Assembly (NCBI RefSeq): GCF_006717145.1
Contig: NZ_VFQF01000001.1
Coordinates: forward strand, 1,302,001 to 1,366,000
Origin: Humibacillus xanthopallidus
Lineage (GTDB): Bacteria; Actinomycetota; Actinomycetes; Actinomycetales; Dermatophilaceae
Direction of reading: 5' to 3'
Length of the DNA stretch: 64,000 bases
The notes beneath the pieces were generated by a model, which was not told the origin of the DNA, ran no database searches, and saw only the letters and a list, made by a program, of their open reading frames with translations. Below, one piece after another: positions 45,539 to 56,004 of the stretch (within the stretch, counting starts at the first letter, position 1; each line of letters opens with the position of its first letter). Both the position numbers and the translations under genes were made by a program.

Positions 45539-46659
45539 GCGACGGCCTCCCGCTTCTGCGCGTTCGCCCGGGCCTCGCGGCGGGCCACCTCGTCGCGCAC
45601 CAACGGGATGACGTGCCGCCCGAAGTCGACCGCGTCGTCGTAGAGGTCGTAGCCACGCGCGGAGAAGATGCGCACGCCGAGGTCGTAGTAGTCGAGCAGC
45701 GCGGCCGCGATGGTCTCGGGACTGCCGACGAGCGCGGTGGAGTTGCCGCCGCCGCCGGTGGCCGCCGCGGTCGCGGTCCACAGGGCACGGTCGTGCCGCT
45801 CCCCGGACCCGGCCGCGGCGAGGAGCCGCTGGGAGCCGGCGTTCTCAGGCTGCCCGGCCGTGCGGAGGCGGCCTCGCGGCGCCTGCGCCCCCTCGGCCTG
45901 TCGCGCCTCGATCGCCGCCAGGGTGCGCTCCGCCTTGCGCCAGGCGAGCTCGTCGGTCTCGGCGATGATGGGTCGGAAGGCGACCTGGATCGTCGGGAGC
46001 GGGCGCCCCGCGTCAGCCGCGGCGACGCGGATCGTCTCGATCTGCTCCGCCGTGCCGGCGAGGGGCTCGCCCCACAGGGCGAAGACGTCGGCCTCCGCCG
46101 CGCCGACCGCGTATGCCGCCGGGCTCGATCCGCCGAACGAGATCCTCGGGCGCGGGCTCTGCAGCGGCTTGATGTCCGAGAGGAAGCCCTCGAACCGGTA
46201 GTGCTCCCCGGCGAAGTCGAAGGGCTCGTCACTCGTCCAGGCCTGCTTGAGGACCTGGATGAACTCGCGGGTCCGGGCATAGCGGGCGTCCTTGTCGAGG
46301 TGGTCGCCCTCGGCCGCCTGGTCGGCGGTGCTACCACCCGTGATGACGTGCACCTCGAACCGGCCGTTGCTGATGTGGTCGAGGGTCGCGAACGTCTTGG
46401 CCGTCAGGGTCGGGTAGGCCGTGTTGGGTCGGTGGGCGACCACGAGGTTGAGCCGCTCCGTGTGCGCGGCGATGTGGGCCGCCACCTGTGCCGGGTCGGG
46501 CGAGCCCGAGTGGTAGGCGAAGAGGATGCGGTCCCAGCCGTTGTCCTCGTGGGCACGGGCGAGCTTGGTGGCGTAGGCGAGGTCGAGCGGGCCGCCGCTG
46601 CGGGGTCCGGTCTCGGTGCCGTCATGGTTGGCGGCGATGCCCAGGAACTCAACTGACAC
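45535..46659 (-). CDS. LLM-class monooxygenase, alkanesulfonate-monooxygenase (SsuD)-like
   Basis: A 374-residue FMNH2-dependent luciferase-like enzyme. SsuD-type features are DNGWDRILFAYHSGSPDP, HRPNTAYPTLTAKTFATLDHISNGR, HVITGGSTADQ and YARTREFIQVLKQAW. In SsuD, such enzymes release sulfite from alkanesulfonates; related YtnJ/NtaA-type members split C-S bonds of thioethers. GTG 46659 follows AAGGA by eight bases and overlaps the upstream gene by 11 bases. The SsuE-like domain encoded two genes upstream could supply reduced FMN. Confidence 0.87.
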   Translation of the reverse strand: MSVEFLGIAANHDGTETGPRSGGPLDLAYATKLARAHEDNGWDRILFAYHSGSPDPAQVAAHIAAHTERLNLVVAHRPNTAYPTLTAKTFATLDHISNGRFEVHVITGGSTADQAAEGDHLDKDARYARTREFIQVLKQAWTSDEPFDFAGEHYRFEGFLSDIKPLQSPRPRISFGGSSPAAYAVGAAEADVFALWGEPLAGTAEQIETIRVAAADAGRPLPTIQVAFRPIIAETDELAWRKAERTLAAIEARQAEGAQAPRGRLRTAGQPENAGSQRLLAAAGSGERHDRALWTATAAATGGGGNSTALVGSPETIAAALLDYYDLGVRIFSARGYDLYDDAVDFGRHVIPLVRDEVARREARANAQKREAVA

Positions 46660-48664
46660 GTCGGTGGTCCTTGTCTCTCGGAGGGGTCGTGCGGGTGGTC
46701 GTGCGGGTGGTCGTGCTGGTGGTCGTGCGGGAGGGGGGTGCCACGGCGCGCAGGTGTCCGGCGTCACCGGAGCGGGCGAGCGGTGTGCGCAGCAGGTCGG
46801 CGGCCACGGCGTCGTTCTGCCGCAGCCCGGGACCGCCGAAGCCCGGTCGTGAGAAGCCGCCGGCGCCCGCCGAGCCCGACACCGCCGGGCCGAGCAGGAA
46901 GCGGCGCGGGTGCACGCTCCCGTCCGCCCGCACGGCGCGACCGCGTGCGTCGGCGACGAGCTGCCCGCTGCCGAGCGGCGTGCCGTCGGCCGCGACGACC
47001 GGCCGTGACCGCAGCTCGCCGGTCGCGAGCAGTCCGGCGACGAGCGGGTCGTTGACGAGGGCGCTGTCCGGCCGGGGCAGGCGGGCCTCGACGGCGGCTC
47101 GGGCCCGCACGACGCGGTGGCCAGAGCGGGCCACGAAGCGGCCGTCCTCGACCCCGAGCGTCAGGTCCGGGCCGACGAAGCGCACGACGCCGGCGCGGTG
47201 AAGGGCGAGCAGCTCGGCCAGACGGCGCGGAGGCGGGCCGCTCGCGAGGAACGAGAACAACCCGTGGAAGTCACCCTCGACGCGGCGCACACGGTCCTCG
47301 TCGAGGAGGCGCCCCGTGACGACGAGGTCGGCCAGGGCGGCATACACCCCGAGGAGGGTGTCGAAGACCGCCCGGTCGCTCGAGCGGGCGGGGTCGGCAC
47401 GGCGTCGCAGGTCGTGCTCCACGTGCTCGACCACCCGAGCCTCGACCTCGTCAGCCGGTGTCGAGCCACTGACGAGAGGAGCGAGCGGGCGGTCGATGAG
47501 CGCGATGTCGAAGACGTCGGTGGGGTCGAGCAGGTGGGGGGCCGCAGCGTCGACGAGACCACTCCCGGTGACGTCGGTGACGGTCAGGGCACGCTCGAGG
47601 TCCTCGACGGTGCCCCGGGTCCGCTCGGGGTGGGCCTCGAAGAGCCGGCGGTAGTGCGCCACCGCGAGCTCGAGCACGACGAGCGGCCACACCTGGGTGC
47701 GGTAGTCGAGGGCCGACCTGCCGTCCCCGAGGGAGCCGAGCCGCTCACGGGTCAGGTGCCGCAGCGGAGCCGGACCGCTGCCCGAGTCGCGGATCTCGTA
47801 GCCGAGCTTGGCGTGGTAGGGCACGCCGCGGCGTGAGCCGACGTGCAGCACGGGCTCCTTGCCGCTCGGGTGGTAGGTGAGCGCGGCACCGTCGCCGGAG
47901 AAGCGGCCACCCCGGCCCTCACCGAGGAGCACCACGAGGTCGACGAACGCCAGCCCCATGCCCCGCACGAGCACCGGCTCACCGGGCCGGAGCCCGGAGA
48001 GGTCGATGTCGGCGGTGTGCCCCGACGGGAGGTAGGTGAGCCCGGCCTCGTCGGCGGCATCGAGCAGTCGCTGCTCCTCGATGCCCGGCGCCTGCTCGAG
48101 GTAGCCCTGCGCGAGCACGACGAGGTCGGCCTCGACCGAGGAGCCCGTTGCGAGCTCGATGCGCTGGGCCGATCCGGACGAGTCTGCGAGGGAGTCCGCG
48201 GTGGAGTCCACGAGAGCGGTCGCGCGCGTGGCGTGGTGGTGCACCGTCACCCGGTCGGGCAGGCGCGCCGTCGCCCGCTCCCAGGCCCAGGAGAGGTAGC
48301 GCGCCTGGAGCACCCGAGGGGCGAAGGCCCGTGGGCCCGTCAACTCTCCACCGGCCGAGGTGGGGCGCGTCCACTGCGCCCACTCGGCGAGCGAGGGGCC
48401 CGGGTCGAGCGGCCCTTCGCACTGCACCGACTCGTCGGTGAAGACCGTGACGTCCTGCGCCTCGGAGTTCATCCAGAGCAGAGGTGACTGGGCGTCGCGC
48501 CAGATGCGGCCACCGCCCGGTGGGTGGGGGTCGATGACGTGCAGCTCGATCGCCTCACCGGAGGTCTGCTGCCGAAGCCGGCTGGCGAGCCGCTCGACGA
48601 TGCCGAGCGTTCGCGGGCCGGCCCCGACGAAGGCGATCGAGCGCGCGCCGGTGGTGCGCGTCAT
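46649..48664 (-). CDS. FAD/NAD(P)-binding protein of the HI0933/FAD-NAD(P)-binding type
   Basis: A 671-residue cytosolic flavoprotein. The N-terminal dinucleotide fold reads RSIAFVGAGPRTLGIVERLA, with the continuation IDPHPPGGGRIWR and SPLLWMNSEAQDVTVF typical of large FAD-NAD(P)-binding proteins found in actinobacterial sulfur and siderophore-like clusters. The reaction is unknown; N- or S-oxygenation of the imported substrate is a possibility. The last 25 residues are Thr/Arg repeats encoded by four 12-bp repeats. The start overlaps the SsuE-GNAT stop (ATGA). Confidence 0.83.
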   Translation of the reverse strand: MTRTTGARSIAFVGAGPRTLGIVERLASRLRQQTSGEAIELHVIDPHPPGGGRIWRDAQSPLLWMNSEAQDVTVFTDESVQCEGPLDPGPSLAEWAQWTRPTSAGGELTGPRAFAPRVLQARYLSWAWERATARLPDRVTVHHHATRATALVDSTADSLADSSGSAQRIELATGSSVEADLVVLAQGYLEQAPGIEEQRLLDAADEAGLTYLPSGHTADIDLSGLRPGEPVLVRGMGLAFVDLVVLLGEGRGGRFSGDGAALTYHPSGKEPVLHVGSRRGVPYHAKLGYEIRDSGSGPAPLRHLTRERLGSLGDGRSALDYRTQVWPLVVLELAVAHYRRLFEAHPERTRGTVEDLERALTVTDVTGSGLVDAAAPHLLDPTDVFDIALIDRPLAPLVSGSTPADEVEARVVEHVEHDLRRRADPARSSDRAVFDTLLGVYAALADLVVTGRLLDEDRVRRVEGDFHGLFSFLASGPPPRRLAELLALHRAGVVRFVGPDLTLGVEDGRFVARSGHRVVRARAAVEARLPRPDSALVNDPLVAGLLATGELRSRPVVAADGTPLGSGQLVADARGRAVRADGSVHPRRFLLGPAVSGSAGAGGFSRPGFGGPGLRQNDAVAADLLRTPLARSGDAGHLRAVAPPSRTTTSTTTRTTTRTTPPRDKDHRRVS
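46685..46732. repeat. Four 12-bp tandem repeats at the 3' end of the FAD gene
   Basis: GGTCGTGCGGGT-type units occur four times in a row, the third and fourth with one change each. They encode the Thr-Thr-Arg tail of the flavoprotein and could vary by slippage without frameshift. Confidence 0.8.
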
Positions 48665-49752
48665 GCGGCGCCCCAGTCCGCGTAGCGGACCACGTGAGCC
48701 GGCGCGAGGGTGACCGGGCTGCGCGACAGCTCCTTGTCGAAGGCGTGCGGTCCGACAGCCTCCGGGTCGGCATGCAGGTCGAAGGCCGGCAGGTAGCCGG
48801 CTGCGAGGTAGAGCGCCCGCGCCTCCGGCTGCCGGGGCCCGGTCGTGAGGTGGATTCGTCGGTAACCCAACGAGGTCGCGGCGCGCTCGAGCTCGGCCAG
48901 CACCCGACGCGCCAGACCCTGGCGGCGGTACTGGGCGTTGGTCCAGACCCGCTTCACCTCCGCGGTCTCGGCGTCGAGCCGACGGATCGCGCCACCGGCG
49001 ATGGTCTGGCCACCACGGAGCACGACGATGAACGCGCCGTCCGGACCCTCGAAGTCGGCGAGCGGCACCTCGGTGAGCTGGGTGTGTGGTGTGTCGAGCC
49101 CGTAGCGCGTGCCGTACTCGACGACGAGGTCGTCGAGCAGCGGCGCTGCGACGTCGTCGTGCGGAGAGACCCGCAGCACGACGTCGTCGTCCTCGTCGAC
49201 GGGCAGGACGTCCGAGCGGTGCCGGGCGAGGTGGGAGAGGAAGGACTCCGTGACCTGGTGAAGCGCGCGGGCCGCCCCCTCGGCGAGCAGCACTCCCCCG
49301 TCGGTGGGATAGACCGTGATGTCGGACGCGATGACGAACCAGCCCTGGGTGACGTGCTCCGCACCGAGCGAGACGAGCACGGGTCGCAAGGCGTAGTCGA
49401 CGGCGAGCACGTGGGCGTTGCTGCCGCCGGTCGCGACCGGCAGGACCGTCTTGCCCCTCAGCGCGTACTGAGGGAGGAGGTCGAGCAGCAGCTTGAGCAG
49501 GCCCGTGTAGGCCGCCTTGTAGACCGGCGTGGTGACGACGACGGCGTCGGAGGCCTCGATCTGGGCGACGACGTCGGCGATGCGCGGGTCCGACGTGTCT
49601 GCCCGCACGAGGGCGCCGGCGGGCAGGTCGCGCAGCACGATCCGCCTCACCTCGTGGCCGCGGACGGCGAGCCGCCGCTCGATGTGACCGAGCACGGCAT
49701 CGGTGCGCGAGGACGCGGACGGGCTCGAGGAGATGGTGACGATGGTGGCCAT
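48661..49752 (-). CDS. FMN reductase (SsuE-like) fused to a GNAT acetyltransferase
   Basis: A 363-residue two-domain protein. Residues about 1-180 form a flavodoxin-like NAD(P)H:FMN reductase (TISSSPSASSRTDAVLGHI, VVVTTPVYKAAYTGLLKLLLD, VATGGSNAHVLAVDYALRP). Residues about 190-345 form an acetyltransferase with motif A QYRRQGLARRVLAELE and motif B EARALYLAAGY. The two activities match two separate steps of Bacillus S-alkylcysteine salvage, N-acetylation and FMNH2 supply. ATG 49752 follows GAGGAG; the gene starts 9 bases after the binding-protein gene. Confidence 0.9.
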   Translation of the reverse strand: MATIVTISSSPSASSRTDAVLGHIERRLAVRGHEVRRIVLRDLPAGALVRADTSDPRIADVVAQIEASDAVVVTTPVYKAAYTGLLKLLLDLLPQYALRGKTVLPVATGGSNAHVLAVDYALRPVLVSLGAEHVTQGWFVIASDITVYPTDGGVLLAEGAARALHQVTESFLSHLARHRSDVLPVDEDDDVVLRVSPHDDVAAPLLDDLVVEYGTRYGLDTPHTQLTEVPLADFEGPDGAFIVVLRGGQTIAGGAIRRLDAETAEVKRVWTNAQYRRQGLARRVLAELERAATSLGYRRIHLTTGPRQPEARALYLAAGYLPAFDLHADPEAVGPHAFDKELSRSPVTLAPAHVVRYADWGAA

Positions 49753-49761
49753 GTCAGCTCC

Positions 49762-50790
49762 TCACTTGGCTGCCGGCTTGGGCAGTCCGGCGGGGTTGAC
49801 CTCCGACGCCGGCACTGCCTCGGTGGTGAGGCCCCAGCGGGCGAGCACCTTGCCGTAGGTGCCGTCCGCGATGGCGGCGTTGATGGCGGCCGAGATCGGA
49901 CCCGCGAGTCCGCTTCCCTTCTTCGTCAGCACCCCGACCTTGCCCGGGATCGGGTAGCTCGACGAGACCGTGCCGACGATCTGCGTCTTGCCCGCCGTGA
50001 CGACGTGGTAGGTCGCCGTGGGGTTCGGGCCGAGGTAGAGGTCGATGCGTCCCGAGTCGAGGGCGAGGTAGTACTCCGTCGTGCCCTGGTAGTAGACGAG
50101 CTCGGCGGGAGCGCGACCGGCCTTCTCGTTCGCCTCGTTCCAGCGCAGCAGGATCGCCTCCTGCAGGGTGCCGGAACCGACGGCCACCCGCTTGCCCGAG
50201 ATGTCGGCCGGGCCCCGCACGACGAGTGCCGAGCCCTTCTTCGCCTCGAAGGCGTGCAGCCCCAGACGGTAGGTGGCGAAGTCGTACTTCTCCTTGCGCT
50301 CCTCCGAGACGCCGACGTTGGAGATGGCCACCTGGTACTTGCCGGAGTCGATGCCGATGAAGAGGTTCTCCCAGCTCGTCGTCTGCACGTCGGCCTGCAG
50401 GCCCAGGACGTCGGCGACGAGGTGGGCGACGTCGACCTCGACGCCGATCGGGGTCTTGTTGTCGTCTGCGGTGAAGGCGAGCGGGGGTATGCCGCCGCCT
50501 GCACCGCCGCTGCCGATGACGAGCCGGCCGCTCGCGCGGACCGCGGCCGGCAGCGTGGCAGCGATCTCCGGATGCGCGACCCCGGCGACCCGGGTGGCCG
50601 ACGCCGACGTGTCGAACGACACGGGCAGGACCTTCGAGTCGCCGAGCGCCTTCGGGTCGACGGTGGGTGCGGCCGTCGGCCCCGGGTCGGCGCAGGCGCC
50701 GAGCAGTGCAGCCGCGACGATGATGCCGGCCGCGCCGAGCGCGGTGCGCCGGGTCGGGATCCGCGAGGTGCGAGAAGTGCTGGTAGTCAT
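49762..50790 (-). CDS. ABC transporter substrate-binding lipoprotein (family 3), copy 1
   Basis: A 342-residue amino-acid-type solute-binding protein. The signal peptide ends with the lipobox LGAC, so it is anchored on the outer face of the membrane. The SBP_bac_3 domain has IGVEVDVAHLVADVLGL, SWENLFIGIDSGKYQVAISN and TEYYLALDSGRIDLYLGPN. It is clearly related to the next gene upstream but far from identical, so the importer can use two receptors. One Ile codon is the rare ATA inside an octamer copy. Confidence 0.9.
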   Translation of the reverse strand: MTTSTSRTSRIPTRRTALGAAGIIVAAALLGACADPGPTAAPTVDPKALGDSKVLPVSFDTSASATRVAGVAHPEIAATLPAAVRASGRLVIGSGGAGGGIPPLAFTADDNKTPIGVEVDVAHLVADVLGLQADVQTTSWENLFIGIDSGKYQVAISNVGVSEERKEKYDFATYRLGLHAFEAKKGSALVVRGPADISGKRVAVGSGTLQEAILLRWNEANEKAGRAPAELVYYQGTTEYYLALDSGRIDLYLGPNPTATYHVVTAGKTQIVGTVSSSYPIPGKVGVLTKKGSGLAGPISAAINAAIADGTYGKVLARWGLTTEAVPASEVNPAGLPKPAAK

Positions 50791-50847: not shown

Positions 50848-51849
50848 TCAGCTGGTCTTGGGCAGGCCGGGAGGGTTGACCTCCGAGGTGGTCACGGCCT
50901 CGCTGGAGAGGTTCCAGCGGGCGAGGACCTTGGCATAGCTGCCGTCGGCGATGGCGGAGTTGATGGCCGCGGCATACGGCTTGGCGAGCCCGGAGCCCTT
51001 CTTGGTGAGCACGGCGATGAGGCCCTGAAGCGAGTCGCCGGCGCCGGAGAAGTGGCCGATGGCCTCGGTCTGGCCGGCGGTGCTCACGTGGTAGGCCACG
51101 CTGGGGTTGGGGCCGAAGTAGGCATCGATGCGACGCGACGCCAGCGCGAGGTAGTAGTCGGTCTGGGACTGGAAGTACTTCACCTCTGCCGGCGCGAGCC
51201 CGTCCTTGACGTTGGCCTCGTTCCAGTCGAGGAGGATCTTCTCCTGGTTGGTGCCCGACCCGACGGCGATCGTCTTGCCGGCGATGTCCTTGCGGCCCGT
51301 GACCCGCCAGGTGCCGCCCTTGGGCGCCTCGAACGCGAGGTCGTCCTTGCGGTAGGTCGCGAAGTCGTACTTCTCCTTGCGCTCCTCCGTGACGGTGACG
51401 TTGGTGAGCGCCACGTCGTAGCGACCGGAGTCGATGCCGAGGAAGACGTTCTCCCAGCTCGTCGCCGGGGTCTCGACCTTGAGGCCGAGCTTGTCGGCGA
51501 AGAGGTGCGCGAGGTCGACCTCGACGCCGATGACCGTCTTGTCGTCGTCGGCCGTGAAGACGAGCGGCGGGGTTCCGCCACCCGCGCCGGCGTTCGCTGC
51601 CGTGATGGTGCCGCGCACACGGATCGCCTGGGGCAGCAGGGCGGCCGCTGCCTCGTCCTTCGTCGCCGTGATGCGCTTCTGGTCCGGTGAGGTGTTGACG
51701 ACTGGTGCGGCCGCGGCGGCGGACGGTGCCGCAGCGTTGCTCGCCTCGGCAGCCCCGGAGCAGGCGGTGAGCGCTACTGAGGTCACGAGGGCCAGGACGG
51801 TGACGGCATACGTCGTCGGGCGGCGGAGGGTGTGGGGGCGTGCGGACAT
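50848..51849 (-). CDS. ABC transporter substrate-binding lipoprotein (family 3), copy 2
   Basis: A 333-residue paralogue of the preceding protein with its own lipoprotein signal (LTAC). Matching segments are IGVEVDLAHLFADKLGL, SWENVFLGIDSGRYDVALTN, EERKEKYDFATYR and the C-terminus TSEVNPPGLPK. Like the pair YtmJ/YtmK of Bacillus, two different receptors serve one permease. ATG 51849 follows GAGGAG. It lies 85 bases downstream of the ATPase gene. Confidence 0.9.
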   Translation of the reverse strand: MSARPHTLRRPTTYAVTVLALVTSVALTACSGAAEASNAAAPSAAAAAPVVNTSPDQKRITATKDEAAAALLPQAIRVRGTITAANAGAGGGTPPLVFTADDDKTVIGVEVDLAHLFADKLGLKVETPATSWENVFLGIDSGRYDVALTNVTVTEERKEKYDFATYRKDDLAFEAPKGGTWRVTGRKDIAGKTIAVGSGTNQEKILLDWNEANVKDGLAPAEVKYFQSQTDYYLALASRRIDAYFGPNPSVAYHVSTAGQTEAIGHFSGAGDSLQGLIAVLTKKGSGLAKPYAAAINSAIADGSYAKVLARWNLSSEAVTTSEVNPPGLPKTS

Positions 51850-51934: not shown

Positions 51935-52699
51935 TCAGAGGACGCGGTCGATGAAGGCGCGCGTGCGCTCGTGCACCGGGTGGTCGATGACCTGGCTCGG
52001 TGGGCCCTGCTCGACGACCCGGCCGGCGTCGAGGAAGACGACGGTGTCGGCAACCTCTCGGGCGAAACCGACCTCGTGCGTGACGACGACGAGGGTTGCG
52101 CCGTCTCGGGCGAGCTCCTTGATGACAGCGAGCACCTCGCCGACGAGCTCGGGGTCCAGGGCCGACGTCGGCTCGTCGAAGAGGATGACGTCGGGGTGTA
52201 GAGCGAGTGCCCGGGCGATGGCGACGCGCTGCTGCTGGCCACCGGACAGCTGTCGCGGATAGGCAGCGGCCTTGTCTCCCAACCCAACTCGCTCGAGAAG
52301 CTGCCGTGCCTCCGGCTCGACCTCGGACCGCTTGCGGCCCTGCGCCGACAGCGGGGCCTCGATGACGTTGTCGAGCACCGTCAGGTGCGGGAAGAGGTTG
52401 AACTGCTGGAAGACGAAGCCGATGCGGCTGCGCTGGCGAAGGATGTCGCGCTCGGGCAGCTCGTGCAGCCGGTCACCGACCTGGCGGTAGCCGATGAGCG
52501 TGCCACCCACCCTGACCTGGCCGCGGTCGACCTTCTCGAGGTGGTTAATGGTGCGCAGCAGGGTCGACTTGCCCGAGCCCGACGGCCCGAGGATCACCGT
52601 GACGGTGCCCTCCGCCAGCTCGAGGTCGACGCCGTCGAGCACCCGGTGGGGGCCGAACGACTTGGTGACGCCACGAAGGTCGACGACGGCGGTGCTCAT
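51935..52699 (-). CDS. Polar amino acid-type ABC transporter ATP-binding protein
   Basis: A 254-residue ATPase of the importer: Walker [15 protein letters not shown]-loop [13 protein letters not shown], signature [15 protein letters not shown], Walker [13 protein letters not shown] and switch His in VVTHEVG. It most resembles GlnQ/TcyC-type ATPases for polar amino acids and cystine. Start and stop overlaps couple it to the permease gene. Confidence 0.93.
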
Positions 52700-53739
52700 C
52701 GCGCCACCTCCGCAGTCTCGCGGCGGGCTCGCAGCGCCAGACCGGCCCAGCGGGCGCGAACCTTCTGCACGGGGGTCGGCGGGAGGGCCCGGGCACTGCC
52801 CTTCGCGAAGTGCCTCTCGACGTAGTACTGCCCGATCGTCAGGAGCGTCGTGAGGATGATGTACCAGACCGTCGCGACGAGAAGCAGCGGGACGACACGC
52901 GAGTTGCGTCCATAGATCACCTGCACCTGGTAGAAGAGCTCCGGGATCGCGAGGACGGACACGATGGAGGTCCCCTTGAAGAGGCTGATCACCTCGTTCG
53001 CGGCGTTCGGCAGGATCGAGCGCATGGCCTGGGGCAGCACGATGCGGAAGAACTGCCGGTGCCGCGGGATGCCCAGGGCGGCAGCCGCCTCGCGCTGGCC
53101 CTCGTCGACGGAGAGGATGCCGCCGCGGATGATCTCTGCCGCGTAGGCCGCCTGGTGGAGGGCGAGCCCGAGCACTGCGGCACCCAGGGCGCCGAAGAGG
53201 TCGTTGGTCTGCACGCTGCCGAACGACGGACCGAACGGCAGCCCGAACGAGATCGTCTGGTAGAGGTAGGCGATGTTGAACCAGAAGAGCAGCTGCACGA
53301 TGAGCGGGATGGAGCGGAAGGCCCAGATGTAGGCCCATGCCACCGTGCGCAGGAAAGCGTTGTGCGACAGGCGCATTGCGGCGAGCACGACCCCCAGGGC
53401 GAAGCCGGCGATCGTGCCGAGGACGGTGAGCTGGATCGTCGTCCCGAGAGCCCTGATGATCGTCTCGGTGGCGAAGTACTGGGCGAAGGTGGGCCAGTCC
53501 CAGCCGGGGTTGGTCGCGAGGCCGTTGACGAACATCGCCACGAGGATGAGCACGGCGACGACGCCGACCCACGTCCAGGGGTTGCGACGCGGGACGACGG
53601 TGAGTCCGGCGCCGGTGTCGTGCGCAGGGATACCGTGCGGACTGGACGGGTCCTCGCCGGCACGAGGCGTGGCGGCGGGTCCCGCGCCGTCGACCGGCGG
53701 GGAGTCCCCGACCGGTCGTGCGACAGAGGTGGTGGACAC
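52696..53739 (-). CDS. Polar amino acid-type ABC transporter permease
   Basis: A 347-residue inner-membrane permease with five to six helices and the HisM/GlnP EAA loop [21 protein letters not shown]. The 50-residue cytoplasmic N-terminus rich in Pro/Ala/Asp is longer than usual. Only one permease gene exists, so it should homodimerise. GTG 53739 follows AAGGAG. It is the first structural gene of the SAM-regulated operon; the 280-base leader holds a leader peptide and riboswitch. Confidence 0.9.
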
Positions 53740-53818
53740 AGGTGTCTCCTTGGTGGTGGGTGCGTTCGGCGACCCGCCCGCGGGGAAGGTGCGGAACGGG
53801 GCCCGGGGGTCTACGAGG

Positions 53819-53862
53819 AGACCTCCGGAGGAGGGTGCGTGCTGCCCGGCCGTGACGGCCGG
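53819..53862 (-). promoter_or_regulatory. Hairpins between leader peptide and permease (possible attenuator)
   Basis: An eight-base stem CCGGCCGT/ACGGCCGG (53846-53862) begins eight bases after the leader-peptide stop, and a smaller CCTCC/GGAGG hairpin (53822-53834) follows. They could be the switch acted on by leader translation or the riboswitch. No T-run is present, so the mechanism may be Rho-dependent or translational. The remaining bases to the permease start show nothing else. Confidence 0.45.
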
Positions 53863-53870
53863 CGAGATCG

Positions 53871-53954
53871 TCAGGGACGACAGAGCGCGCTGGACACCCG
53901 GAGCAGGTCGACGTGACGACGAAGCACCAGGTGGGTGCCCGTGCTGCGCGTCAT
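53871..53954 (-). CDS. 27-residue Cys-containing leader peptide of the sulfur operon
   Basis: A short reading frame, ATG to TGA, encodes a basic peptide ending [17 protein letters not shown]. It resembles the family of short putative leader peptides seen before sulfur genes in actinobacteria, which share an HVDLxRV-S-x-LCR core. GAGGAG lies about six bases upstream. Near its end is a single Cys codon TGT, then Arg-Pro-stop, so ribosome pausing there could report cysteine supply. It lies between the SAM riboswitch and the permease gene. Confidence 0.75.
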
Positions 53955-54019
53955 GCCCGCTCCTCGGTTCCTGGACCCGAGCACCTCGAGTCCGCGCTTG
54001 CCGGCGCCGAGACGGCGAC

Positions 54020-54106
54020 GGCCAGGTATTCACCCGGAGCACCCCGCCGCGGAGGAGGGTTGCTGTCCAGCGAGCCGGGGCTTGGCACTGGAGCTCTTGA
54101 CCTGTC
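54020..54106 (-). promoter_or_regulatory. SAM-IV-type riboswitch
   Basis: The minus strand contains the core segments GTGCCAAGCCCCGGCTCGC, GGACAGCAACCCTCC, CCGCGGCGGGGTGC and TCCGGGTGAATACCTGG in the order of the actinobacterial SAM-IV (SAM-I-related) consensus. CAGGT at the 5' end pairs with ACCTG at the 3' end as P1, and GCTCG-type arms close the GCCCCGGC loop. It sits about five bases after the predicted transcription start and governs the whole downstream operon, normally switching expression off when S-adenosylmethionine is plentiful. Confidence 0.87.
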
Positions 54107-54110
54107 GGCA

Positions 54111-54139
54111 ACCCTAGAAGCGGCCTCACCGGCGGTCAA
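54111..54139 (-). promoter_or_regulatory. Promoter of the sulfur operon
   Basis: TTGACC (54134-54139) and TAGGGT (54111-54116) are 17 bases apart on the minus strand, a near-ideal housekeeping promoter. Transcription would start near 54104, just before the riboswitch. Confidence 0.75.
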
Positions 54140-54149
54140 ACGACGAAAC

Positions 54150-54180
54150 GGGCCGCGCCGGGCATTGCCCGACGCGACCC
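54150..54180 (-). terminator. Possible second terminator upstream of the sulfur promoter
   Basis: GGGTCGCGTCGGGC and GCCCGGCGCGGCCC pair fully on the minus strand if two G-U pairs are allowed, with a three-base loop and a T-rich flank. It could stop rpsA read-through. On the plus strand the same bases mismatch. The stretch 54181-54318 shows no gene. Confidence 0.45.
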
Positions 54181-54318
54181 GTGCTGTCGCATGATCCGCG
54201 AATCAATCTGTGCCGCAGTGGAATTCGCTGGCACACCGACCCGGGGCCGGAAGTCCAATTCCTATGTTCTGGGTCGGATATTGCCCTTGCGCCTTCTTGC
54301 ATCCTGAGACGGAGAAAG

Positions 54319-54357
54319 CGAAGGAGCCCCGGACCACGAGGGTCCGGGGCTCCTTCG
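54319..54357 (-). terminator. Terminator of rpsA
   Basis: A 17-bp perfect stem (arm CGAAGGAGCCCCGGACC) with loop ACGAG begins 13 bases after the rpsA stop. Its loop-proximal sequence GGACCACGAG is shared with the terminator at 42740. Confidence 0.85.
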
Positions 54358-54369
54358 GAGCGGTGAGGC

Positions 54370-55881
54370 TCAGTTGCCGGTCAGCTTCTCACGGAGCGCG
54401 GCGAGCGCCTCGTCGGAAGCGAGCGTGCCCTCGACGGGGGCCGGCGCGCTGCGCTGGCTCCGGTCGGCACGGTCGGCGTCACCCGAGTCGGCGACGTCAC
54501 CCGTGGCGGAGGAGTACGACGTCGACGTGCTGCCACCGGCAGCCGCCTCGGCGTCGGCCTTCGTCGCGGCGTCGACCTGGGCCTTGTGGGCCTCCCAGCG
54601 GGCGTGGGCCTCGGCGTACTGACGCTCCCACTTCTCGCGCTGGGTCTCGAAGCCCTCGAGCCACTCGTTCGTCTCCGGGTCGAAGCCCTCGGGGTACTTG
54701 TAGTTGCCGGCCTCGTCGTACTCGGCGGCCATGCCGTAGAGGGTCGGGTCGAACTCCGACACCGGCACGGACTGGTCGTTGGCCTGCTTGAGCGACAGCG
54801 AGATGCGACGACGCTCGAGGTCGATGTCGATGACCTTGACGAAGATCTCGTCGCCGACGTTGACGACCTGCTCCGGCAGCTCCACGTGGCGCTCGGCCAG
54901 CTCGGAGATGTGCACGAGGCCCTCGATGCCATCCTCGACGCGCACGAACGCACCGAAGGGGACGAGCTTGGTGACCTTGCCGGGGACGACCTGGCCGATG
55001 GCGTGCGTGCGAGCGAAGTGCTGCCACGGGTCCTCCTGCGTCGCCTTCAGCGACAGGGAGACACGCTCACGGTCCATGTCGACGTCGAGCACCTCGACGG
55101 TGACCTCGGTGCCGACCTCGACGACCTCGGACGGGTGGTCGATGTGCTTCCACGACAGCTCGGAGACGTGGACGAGACCGTCGACGCCGCCGAGGTCCAC
55201 GAACGCACCGAAGTTGACGATGGAGGACACGACGCCCGAACGGACCTGGCCCTTCTGGAGCTCCTTGAGGAACGTCGTGCGCACCTCGGACTGCGTCTGC
55301 TCGAGCCAGGCACGGCGCGACAGGACCACGTTGTTGCGGTTCTTGTCGAGCTCGATGATCTTGGCCTCGATCTCCTTGCCGACGTACGGCTGGAGGTCGC
55401 GGACGCGGCGCATCTCGACGAGCGAGGCGGGCAGGAAGCCGCGCAGGCCGATGTCGAGGATGAGGCCACCCTTGACGACCTCGATGACGGTGCCGGTGAC
55501 GACGCCGTCCTCCTCCTTGACCTTCTCGATCGTGCCCCAGGCGCGCTCGTACTGCGCACGCTTCTTAGACAGGATGAGGCGGCCTTCCTTGTCCTCCTTC
55601 TGGAGGACGAGGGCCTCGACCTCGTCACCGACCTTGACGATCTCGCCGGGGTCGACGTCGTGCTTGATGGACAGCTCGCGCGAGGGGATGACGCCCTCGG
55701 TCTTGTAGCCGATGTCGAGCAGGACCTCGTCCCGGTCGACCTTGACGATCACGCCCTCGACGATGTCGCCATCGTTGAAGTCCTTGATGGTGGCATCGAT
55801 CGCCGCAAGGATGTCTTCCTGAGAGCCGATGTCGTTGATGGCAATCTCAGGCGCGGTCTTCTCGACCGTGTAGGCAGTCAT
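54370..55881 (-). CDS. rpsA: 30S ribosomal protein S1
   Basis: RNA-binding protein that helps the ribosome engage mRNA. The 503-residue protein has four S1/OB domains (GDIVEGVIVKVDRDEVLLDIGYKTEG is split across domain 1; later VVSSIVNFGAFVDLGGVDGLVH and KLVPFGAFVRVEDGIEGLVH in domains 3-4), then a low-complexity acidic/Ala/Ser tail ending REKLTGN. ATG 55881 follows GGAGT and gives the start TAYTVEKTAPEIAIND. A strong promoter lies about 130 bases upstream. Confidence 0.96.
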   Translation of the reverse strand: MTAYTVEKTAPEIAINDIGSQEDILAAIDATIKDFNDGDIVEGVIVKVDRDEVLLDIGYKTEGVIPSRELSIKHDVDPGEIVKVGDEVEALVLQKEDKEGRLILSKKRAQYERAWGTIEKVKEEDGVVTGTVIEVVKGGLILDIGLRGFLPASLVEMRRVRDLQPYVGKEIEAKIIELDKNRNNVVLSRRAWLEQTQSEVRTTFLKELQKGQVRSGVVSSIVNFGAFVDLGGVDGLVHVSELSWKHIDHPSEVVEVGTEVTVEVLDVDMDRERVSLSLKATQEDPWQHFARTHAIGQVVPGKVTKLVPFGAFVRVEDGIEGLVHISELAERHVELPEQVVNVGDEIFVKVIDIDLERRRISLSLKQANDQSVPVSEFDPTLYGMAAEYDEAGNYKYPEGFDPETNEWLEGFETQREKWERQYAEAHARWEAHKAQVDAATKADAEAAAGGSTSTSYSSATGDVADSGDADRADRSQRSAPAPVEGTLASDEALAALREKLTGN

Positions 55882-56004
55882 GTAGTAGGAACTCCGATTG
55901 TGGACGGTTTGATTGGGGACGGCGCGGCGCGCGAGCATGGCTCGGCGCCCCGGCATCTTGTGGACTGGTGCAACAGTGTCGTGCGCACACGGATGTGCCC
56001 GGTA

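Follow-up and report, generated by a model that had tools for sequence, protein, structure and literature searches.

The minus strand of a 64,000-nucleotide stretch of the genome of the soil actinobacterium Humibacillus xanthopallidus (hereafter the window) carries a full-length SAM-IV aptamer followed directly by a leader peptide with a single Cys codon, and this tandem recurs in the bacterial family to which the organism belongs. What we computed comprises the aptamer, the leader, the recurrence with two SAM aptamer classes, the placement of Shine-Dalgarno (SD) sequences and the conservation of a UGU codon. With some confidence, we favour the interpretation that the two elements form a layered two-signal switch, in which SAM would gate the start of the leader, the leader would sense cysteine, and the downstream operon would be switched on only when both are low.

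The putative promoter consists of a TTGACC -35 box (54139-54134, minus strand as for all elements of the leader region), a 17-nt spacer and a TAGGGT -10 box (54116-54111). A previous reading of the DNA, made from the sequence only, had described this promoter as good; TTGAC and TAGxGT are indeed invariant in a five-sequence alignment with Terrabacter and Terracoccus relatives, although a strict sigma-70 consensus scan called no promoter ahead of the aptamer. The SAM-IV aptamer follows at 54102..53989, where RF00634 matches over its full length (model 1-116) with 102.6 bits against a gathering score of 38 (E 1e-17). It is the sole Rfam match at the gathering threshold in the window, and the proposed SAM-IV-type riboswitch thus passed the covariance-model check, a missing match being the result that would have spoken against it. 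Folding predicts a candidate anti-sequestor hairpin, GGACTCGAG-GTG-CTCGGGTCC, at 53973..53993, the 5' arm of which overlaps the 3' end of the aptamer. The leader open reading frame (ORF) begins 34 nt past the aptamer, 5 nt behind a GAGGAG SD sequence (53965-53960), and runs for 27 codons from an ATG at 53954 to a TGA at 53871. Its only Cys is codon 25, a UGU at 53880..53882 presumed to be regulatory, after which two codons precede the stop. The region singled out by the sequence-only reading, 53871-54139, coincides exactly with the interval from the -35 box through the leader stop, and its description of a 27-codon peptide with one Cys near the end was accurate. These data confirm the arrangement of aptamer and leader in the window.

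Past the leader stop, the evidence for a transcriptional signal is meagre. The strong hairpin previously suggested here does exist as 7 pairs at 53862-53846, but it lacks a U tract. Between the Cys codon and the permease start, a span of 151 nt, the predicted fold is not more stable than those of shuffled sequences (z -1.09; 29 of 200 shuffles matched or exceeded its stability). Intrinsic-terminator-like sites are absent from 53700-54350, and the region does not qualify as a classical terminator-attenuator. In a predicted fold, the AAGGAG SD sequence of the permease (53746..53751) is paired with an upstream CUCC. On the other side of the tandem, a strong inverted repeat, GGAGCCCCGGACC...GGTCCGGGGCTCC, is located at 54320-54358 (minus strand) just behind a gene at 54370-55956, which, by its sequence, presumably encodes a product with S1-like repeats. 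The repeat is probably the terminator of that gene, separating it from the promoter of the tandem.

The leader in the window passes the NCBIfam model NF042934, 'putative leader peptide', with 33.5 bits against a cut-off of 27, while staying below the cut-off of 45 with both Ms4527A (28.0 bits) and Ms5788A (21.6 bits) and matching no Pfam model. Its surroundings are those expected of NF042934, namely a short ORF with an SD sequence before an ABC operon with an SsuE-type reductase, and its relatives show the codon pattern of translation. Across 45 unique family sequences, 79% of the single-base codon differences in the leader motif are synonymous in frame, and the two alternative frames give 19% and 5% (7 of the 54 family leaders were missed by the motif in this count). 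The peptide sequence R-R-H-V-D-L-x-R-V is near-invariant in family leaders and the third codon positions vary. Judging by this codon pattern, the leaders of the family are translated.

Most tandem leaders contain a single Cys codon. Of 49 unique family leaders, 44 (24/26 tandem and 20/23 solo) use UGU as the first Cys codon past the motif, as do 40 of 64 class leaders, all counts being of unique sequences having a Cys; as a background, UGU accounts for 7 of the 81 Cys codons in a set of 25 high-GC3 open frames from the window. The preference for UGU is common to tandem and solo leaders of the family, though this codon is rare in these GC-rich genomes. A single tRNA-Cys with the anticodon GCA usually serves both Cys codons, and UGU is then read by wobble. 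The UGU counts and the counts of start types given below cover 118 of 124 leaders, with L102 left out and L068, L125, L136, L139 and L142 missed. L102 (G141:C13:22588-22638), among the 25 family matches that have no SAM aptamer upstream, is an NF042934 match at the start of a protein, which we take from its sequence to be CysN-like and no leader; the match may be due to chance or to a shared motif.

To describe the recurrence of the tandem, all 54 places in 39 of 186 family genomes that match NF042934 (E<=0.001) were scanned with Rfam. A SAM aptamer was found directly upstream on the same strand at 29 of them, 24 of the SAM-IV and 5 of the SAM-I class (RF00162), and these 29 tandems are spread over 20 of the 186 genomes and 9 genera. 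The same genomes contain 478 SAM-IV matches (in 150 genomes), 24 of which carry a leader match, and 67 SAM-I matches (in 50 genomes), one of them below the cut-off. Therefore, approximately 5% of SAM-IV aptamers and about half of the leaders are part of a tandem. The H. xanthopallidus genome has five SAM-IV matches and two NF042934 matches over the cut-off, both behind SAM-IV aptamers; the second tandem (C2:1208281-1208577; L004, L035, L114) consists of a SAM-IV aptamer, the leader MTHTTDRRTRATCLWSRRHVDLSRVSSALCHS and then a luciferase-like monooxygenase gene. The one other genome of the genus that was examined has three SAM-IV matches and no leader match.

Class-wide, leaders are present in at least 181 of 296 genomes. 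From the class matches listed, 70 leaders were sampled, 30 as given and 40 hand-picked to spread over families, and two were in tandem, L130 with SAM-IV and L165 with SAM-I. A core pattern and our own SAM-IV model were applied to all 70, and Rfam to L130 and L165 only, so that a SAM-I aptamer could be overlooked in the remaining 68. When 84,980 named species were scanned with a narrow pattern, 22 stretches were obtained, 8 with SAM-IV (in Terrabacter, which NCBI taxonomy places in the Intrasporangiaceae, Terracoccus and Luteipulveratus) and 14 that did not have two SAM core words; since at least two of the 8 tandems lie on contigs equal in length to contigs of the genome sets, the 8 were kept out of the recurrence counts. 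Overall, the tandem is uncommon in the class and recurrent within the family. The view of the sequence-only reading that the arrangement is unusual holds at the broad scale, given the 24 of 478 SAM-IV matches of the family and the 2 of 70 class leaders, and among the leaders of the family the tandem recurs. Two peculiarities were seen along the way. At L130, two SAM-IV aptamers lie back to back, at 1095-1212 on the minus and 1314-1430 on the plus strand with ~100 nt between them, and only the plus-strand aptamer is followed by a leader. In L107, L108 and L109, all of one genus, perfect or near-perfect palindromes such as ATTTCCCTAGGGAAAT stand directly past the leader stop, and in L107 and L109 they are repeated.

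Tandem and solo leaders differ in the way in which the leader starts. Of 31 tandem leaders, 26 have an SD sequence ahead of the start codon (19% expected from shuffles), the other 5 having none by the test applied, and a leaderless-type -10 element was found in 0 of 31. Solo class leaders, by comparison, are of the leaderless type in 42 of 64 cases (shuffle expectation 5%) and of the SD type in 10 of 64, and solo family leaders are of these two types in 7/23 and 8/23 cases, respectively. Shuffle backgrounds across the leader sets were 2-9% for the leaderless and 11-19% for the SD type. In SAM-IV tandems the leader starts 24-36 nt past the aptamer, with the exceptions of an upstream ATG in L109 (13 nt) and of L130 (16 nt); in solo SAM-IV leaders the longest downstream frame was placed at 13 nt and more. 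Since the ribosome-binding site of the leader sits where that of the first gene is found in solo SAM-IV leaders, the elements look layered.

The junction is even tighter in the SAM-I tandems. Only 4-10 nt separate the aptamer end from the leader ATG in all six, and a purine-rich SD sequence abuts or overlaps the 3' strand of the aptamer. Three of these junctions read GATGGAGG-4 nt-ATG and three have GATGAG followed by AAAGG or GAAG, as exemplified by GATGAGAA-AGG..ATG. Minimum free energy folds give P1 in just two of the six (L063 and L165).

In the SAM-IV leaders, the last bases of the aptamer pair with a downstream arm, which in the window gives GGACUCGAG-GUG-CUCGGGUCC. Pairing of each aptamer with its own arm exceeded that with permuted arms: 0 of 5000 permutations reached it in 21 SAM-IV tandem sequences (L130 left out and near-identical sequences collapsed), 4 of 20000 in 13 stricter tandem representatives, and 0 of 20000 in 20 solo SAM-IV leaders, the latter two sets being hand-picked. 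Because the sequences are related, these counts are not clean probabilities. The signal is confined to cross-sequence permutations, a per-sequence shuffle test of the anti-sequestor being weak (3 of 23 at p<0.05). For the sequestering helix itself, formed between the arm and the leader SD sequence, covariation gave no support (5664 of 20000 permutations), while in a fold of the window with the pseudoknot strand blocked the leader SD sequence is paired. Behind the leader, C exceeds G in 31/31 tandems and in 23/23 family and 60/64 class solos, a count made without a random control.

The genes downstream of the tandem in the window, all on the minus strand, encode an ABC transporter permease with a GTG start (52696..53739; PF00528, 84.8 bits), an ATP-binding protein (51935..52699; PF00005, 122.7 bits), two family 3 substrate-binding proteins (50848..51849 and 49762..50790; PF00497, 82.1 and 76.6 bits, respectively), an SsuE-type FMN reductase fused to a GNAT domain (48661..49752; TIGR03567, 193.7 against a cut-off of 164.05; PF00583) and an FAD-NAD(P)-binding protein (46649..48664; PF13454, 124.7 bits). 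The reductase gene starts 10 nt after the second binding-protein gene and is overlapped by 4 nt by the FAD-NAD(P)-binding gene; from the shared strand and the short gap and overlap, both probably belong to the operon. A luciferase-like monooxygenase gene is found farther downstream. The top-scoring NCBIfam models for the permease, the ATPase and the nearest binding protein are those for cystine, each of them under its cut-off (for the ATPase, TcyN at 315.9 against 406). Judged by its gene content, the operon would most naturally be read as serving sulfur scavenging.

First genes were scanned at 20 of the 30 other tandem loci as well as in the window. They encode an FMN reductase at L066, L082, L085, L091, L093 and L107, with L091 passing the SsuE cut-off, a sulfonate-type binding protein at L062 (below the SsuA cut-off), a cysteine dioxygenase-like protein at L094 and L103, a luciferase-like monooxygenase at L035 and L130, an ABC permease at L070 and L099, and a binding protein of family 3 at L075 and L097 or of family 5 at L165. 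These first genes fit sulfur scavenging. Solo SAM-IV loci, by their sequences, presumably precede for the most part look-alikes of O-acetylhomoserine sulfhydrylase, MetX or class V aminotransferase. As a separate observation, the SAM-I aptamer with Cys leader (L063, L074, L081, L088, L105; 4/5 scanned) stands before OsmC-family genes, detected as the first gene at L063, L081, L088 and L105, and OsmC is an unexpected target for SAM and cysteine.

We hypothesize that the SAM-IV aptamer, as the first element of the transcript, has the translation start of the leader and not the transporter as its direct output. With SAM bound, the leader SD sequence would be closed; the leader would then go untranslated, there would be no stalled ribosome, and therefore the operon would be off whatever the cysteine level. 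With SAM low, the leader would be translated and the ribosome would probe cysteine at one UGU just before the stop, perhaps aided by the conserved nascent sequence RRHVDLxRVSSAL. A ribosome stalled at the UGU may open the transporter start site by freeing its SD sequence from the CUCC, may keep Rho off the C-rich stretch, or both, and a ribosome that finishes the leader when cysteine suffices, or never starts, would leave the operon off. Control of the leader SD sequence by SAM, stalling at the Cys codon, the AND logic and the role of Rho are thus features of the proposal, and the earlier suggestion that two sulfur signals could be combined in one transcript can be sharpened in that the elements appear layered, not merely adjacent.

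The arrangement could also be one of two independent serial elements, the SAM-IV riboswitch acting on the synthesis or the stability of the operon transcript and the Cys leader attenuating separately, so that the leader start would not be the riboswitch output. We hold this to be rather unlikely, although it agrees with the failure of the pairing between arm and leader SD sequence to gain covariation support and with the occurrence of each element alone in the same genomes. It is at odds with the lack, in the window, of a terminator-like site on either side of the leader ORF, with the replacement of leaderless-type by SD-type starts in the tandems, and with the leader start site adjoining the aptamer end in the SAM-I tandems. 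That the ORF and the aptamer are chance neighbours and the short ORF is not a gene can be given hardly any weight: short ORFs do abound in GC-rich DNA and the other genome of the genus examined (n=1) is without a leader, but at about three SAM aptamers per genome far fewer than 1 in 54 leader matches would be expected within 150 nt of one, as against the 29 found, and the synonymous variation is specific to the leader frame.

If, instead, the riboswitch alone mattered, the peptide would be a passive upstream ORF (uORF) that couples to or shields the downstream gene, with no sensing of cysteine. The single Cys codon of most tandem leaders would suit this explanation, as would the riboswitch-controlled uORFs of Mycobacterium tuberculosis, for which the available portions of the reports give no known amino-acid sensing (PMC12810186, PMC11260477). 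We nevertheless regard it as quite improbable considering the membership in a family of leaders whose C-terminal Cys is conserved, the excess of UGU over background (44/49 vs. 7/81) and the response to cysteine of mycobacterial Cys-containing relatives (Canestrari et al. 2020, as rendered in the accessible parts of PMC9031893 and PMC13236596).

Returning to the layered switch, a broader version of it can be put forward, tentatively and as slightly doubtful: SAM-IV and SAM-I would both have been put before the same kind of Cys leader, such that a normally leaderless, always-translated sensor became SD-led and would report cysteine shortage only when SAM is short too, the sensor itself being a nascent-chain-assisted arrest peptide acting at a single UGU. 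If the gating is true, the output of the riboswitch is itself a sensor, and combinatorial logic would be obtained from two well-understood RNA parts with no protein regulator. It would also explain how these actinobacteria restrict the expense of organosulfur scavenging to a joint shortage of the two end products of sulfur assimilation. How a leader could sense cysteine with a single Cys codon is directly testable by way of the conserved UGU and the nascent-chain motif.

Related systems are known. The enterobacterial mgtA leader with its proline-codon ORF mgtL has an aptamer-like leader and a leader peptide in one 5' region; it differs from the tandem described here in responding to Mg2+ and proline, in belonging to another phylum and in having no SAM aptamer. 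In M. tuberculosis, the Mbox controls uORF2 of pe20 (PMC12810186) and a B12 riboswitch controls uPPE2 (PMC11260477). From the accessible text of these reports, the riboswitch output there is a small upstream ORF, as proposed here, through a translational platform with Rho proposed or shown, but those uORFs are not known amino-acid sensors, whereas the one in the window belongs to a Cys leader family, and two metabolites would therefore be read serially. The SAM-I riboswitch of Xanthomonas, according to the available part of PMC7270179, also senses uncharged initiator tRNA and similarly brings SAM and a further sulfur amino-acid signal together in one leader; its second sensor is a tRNA-binding expression platform, while that of the window would be a translated peptide.

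Both components are known separately in actinobacteria, as the sequence-only reading had stated. Seliverstov et al. 2005 put forward candidate Cys leader peptides ahead of cys genes in actinobacteria (PMC1262725), and the mycobacterial leaderless poly-Cys ORFs Ms5788A and Ms4527A are functional (Canestrari et al. 2020, as cited in excerpts of PMC9031893 and PMC13236596). Streptomyces lividans is reported to have one SAM-IV and eight leader peptides, with no tandem described in the accessible sections (PMC8079986), and the term leader peptide does not occur in the available portion of a survey of contiguous riboswitches (PMC12452182). No paper on a Cys leader behind a SAM riboswitch was found in the open-access literature, outside which most subscription papers lie. 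The tandem is thus a new combination of known kinds. Like other actinobacterial Cys leaders, the one in the window has the conserved R-x-V-D-L-x-R-V, a Cys near the stop and sulfur genes downstream; unlike Ms4527A and Ms5788A, as far as the excerpted sources describe them, it has one UGU in place of a Cys run, is SD-led and not leaderless, and has a SAM aptamer ahead. The aptamer, for its part, resembles solo SAM-IV riboswitches (RF00634) in its full-length match and in the downstream arm, and departs from the usual SAM-IV in having a leader peptide as the first ORF past it, an arrangement shared by 24 of the 478 family matches.
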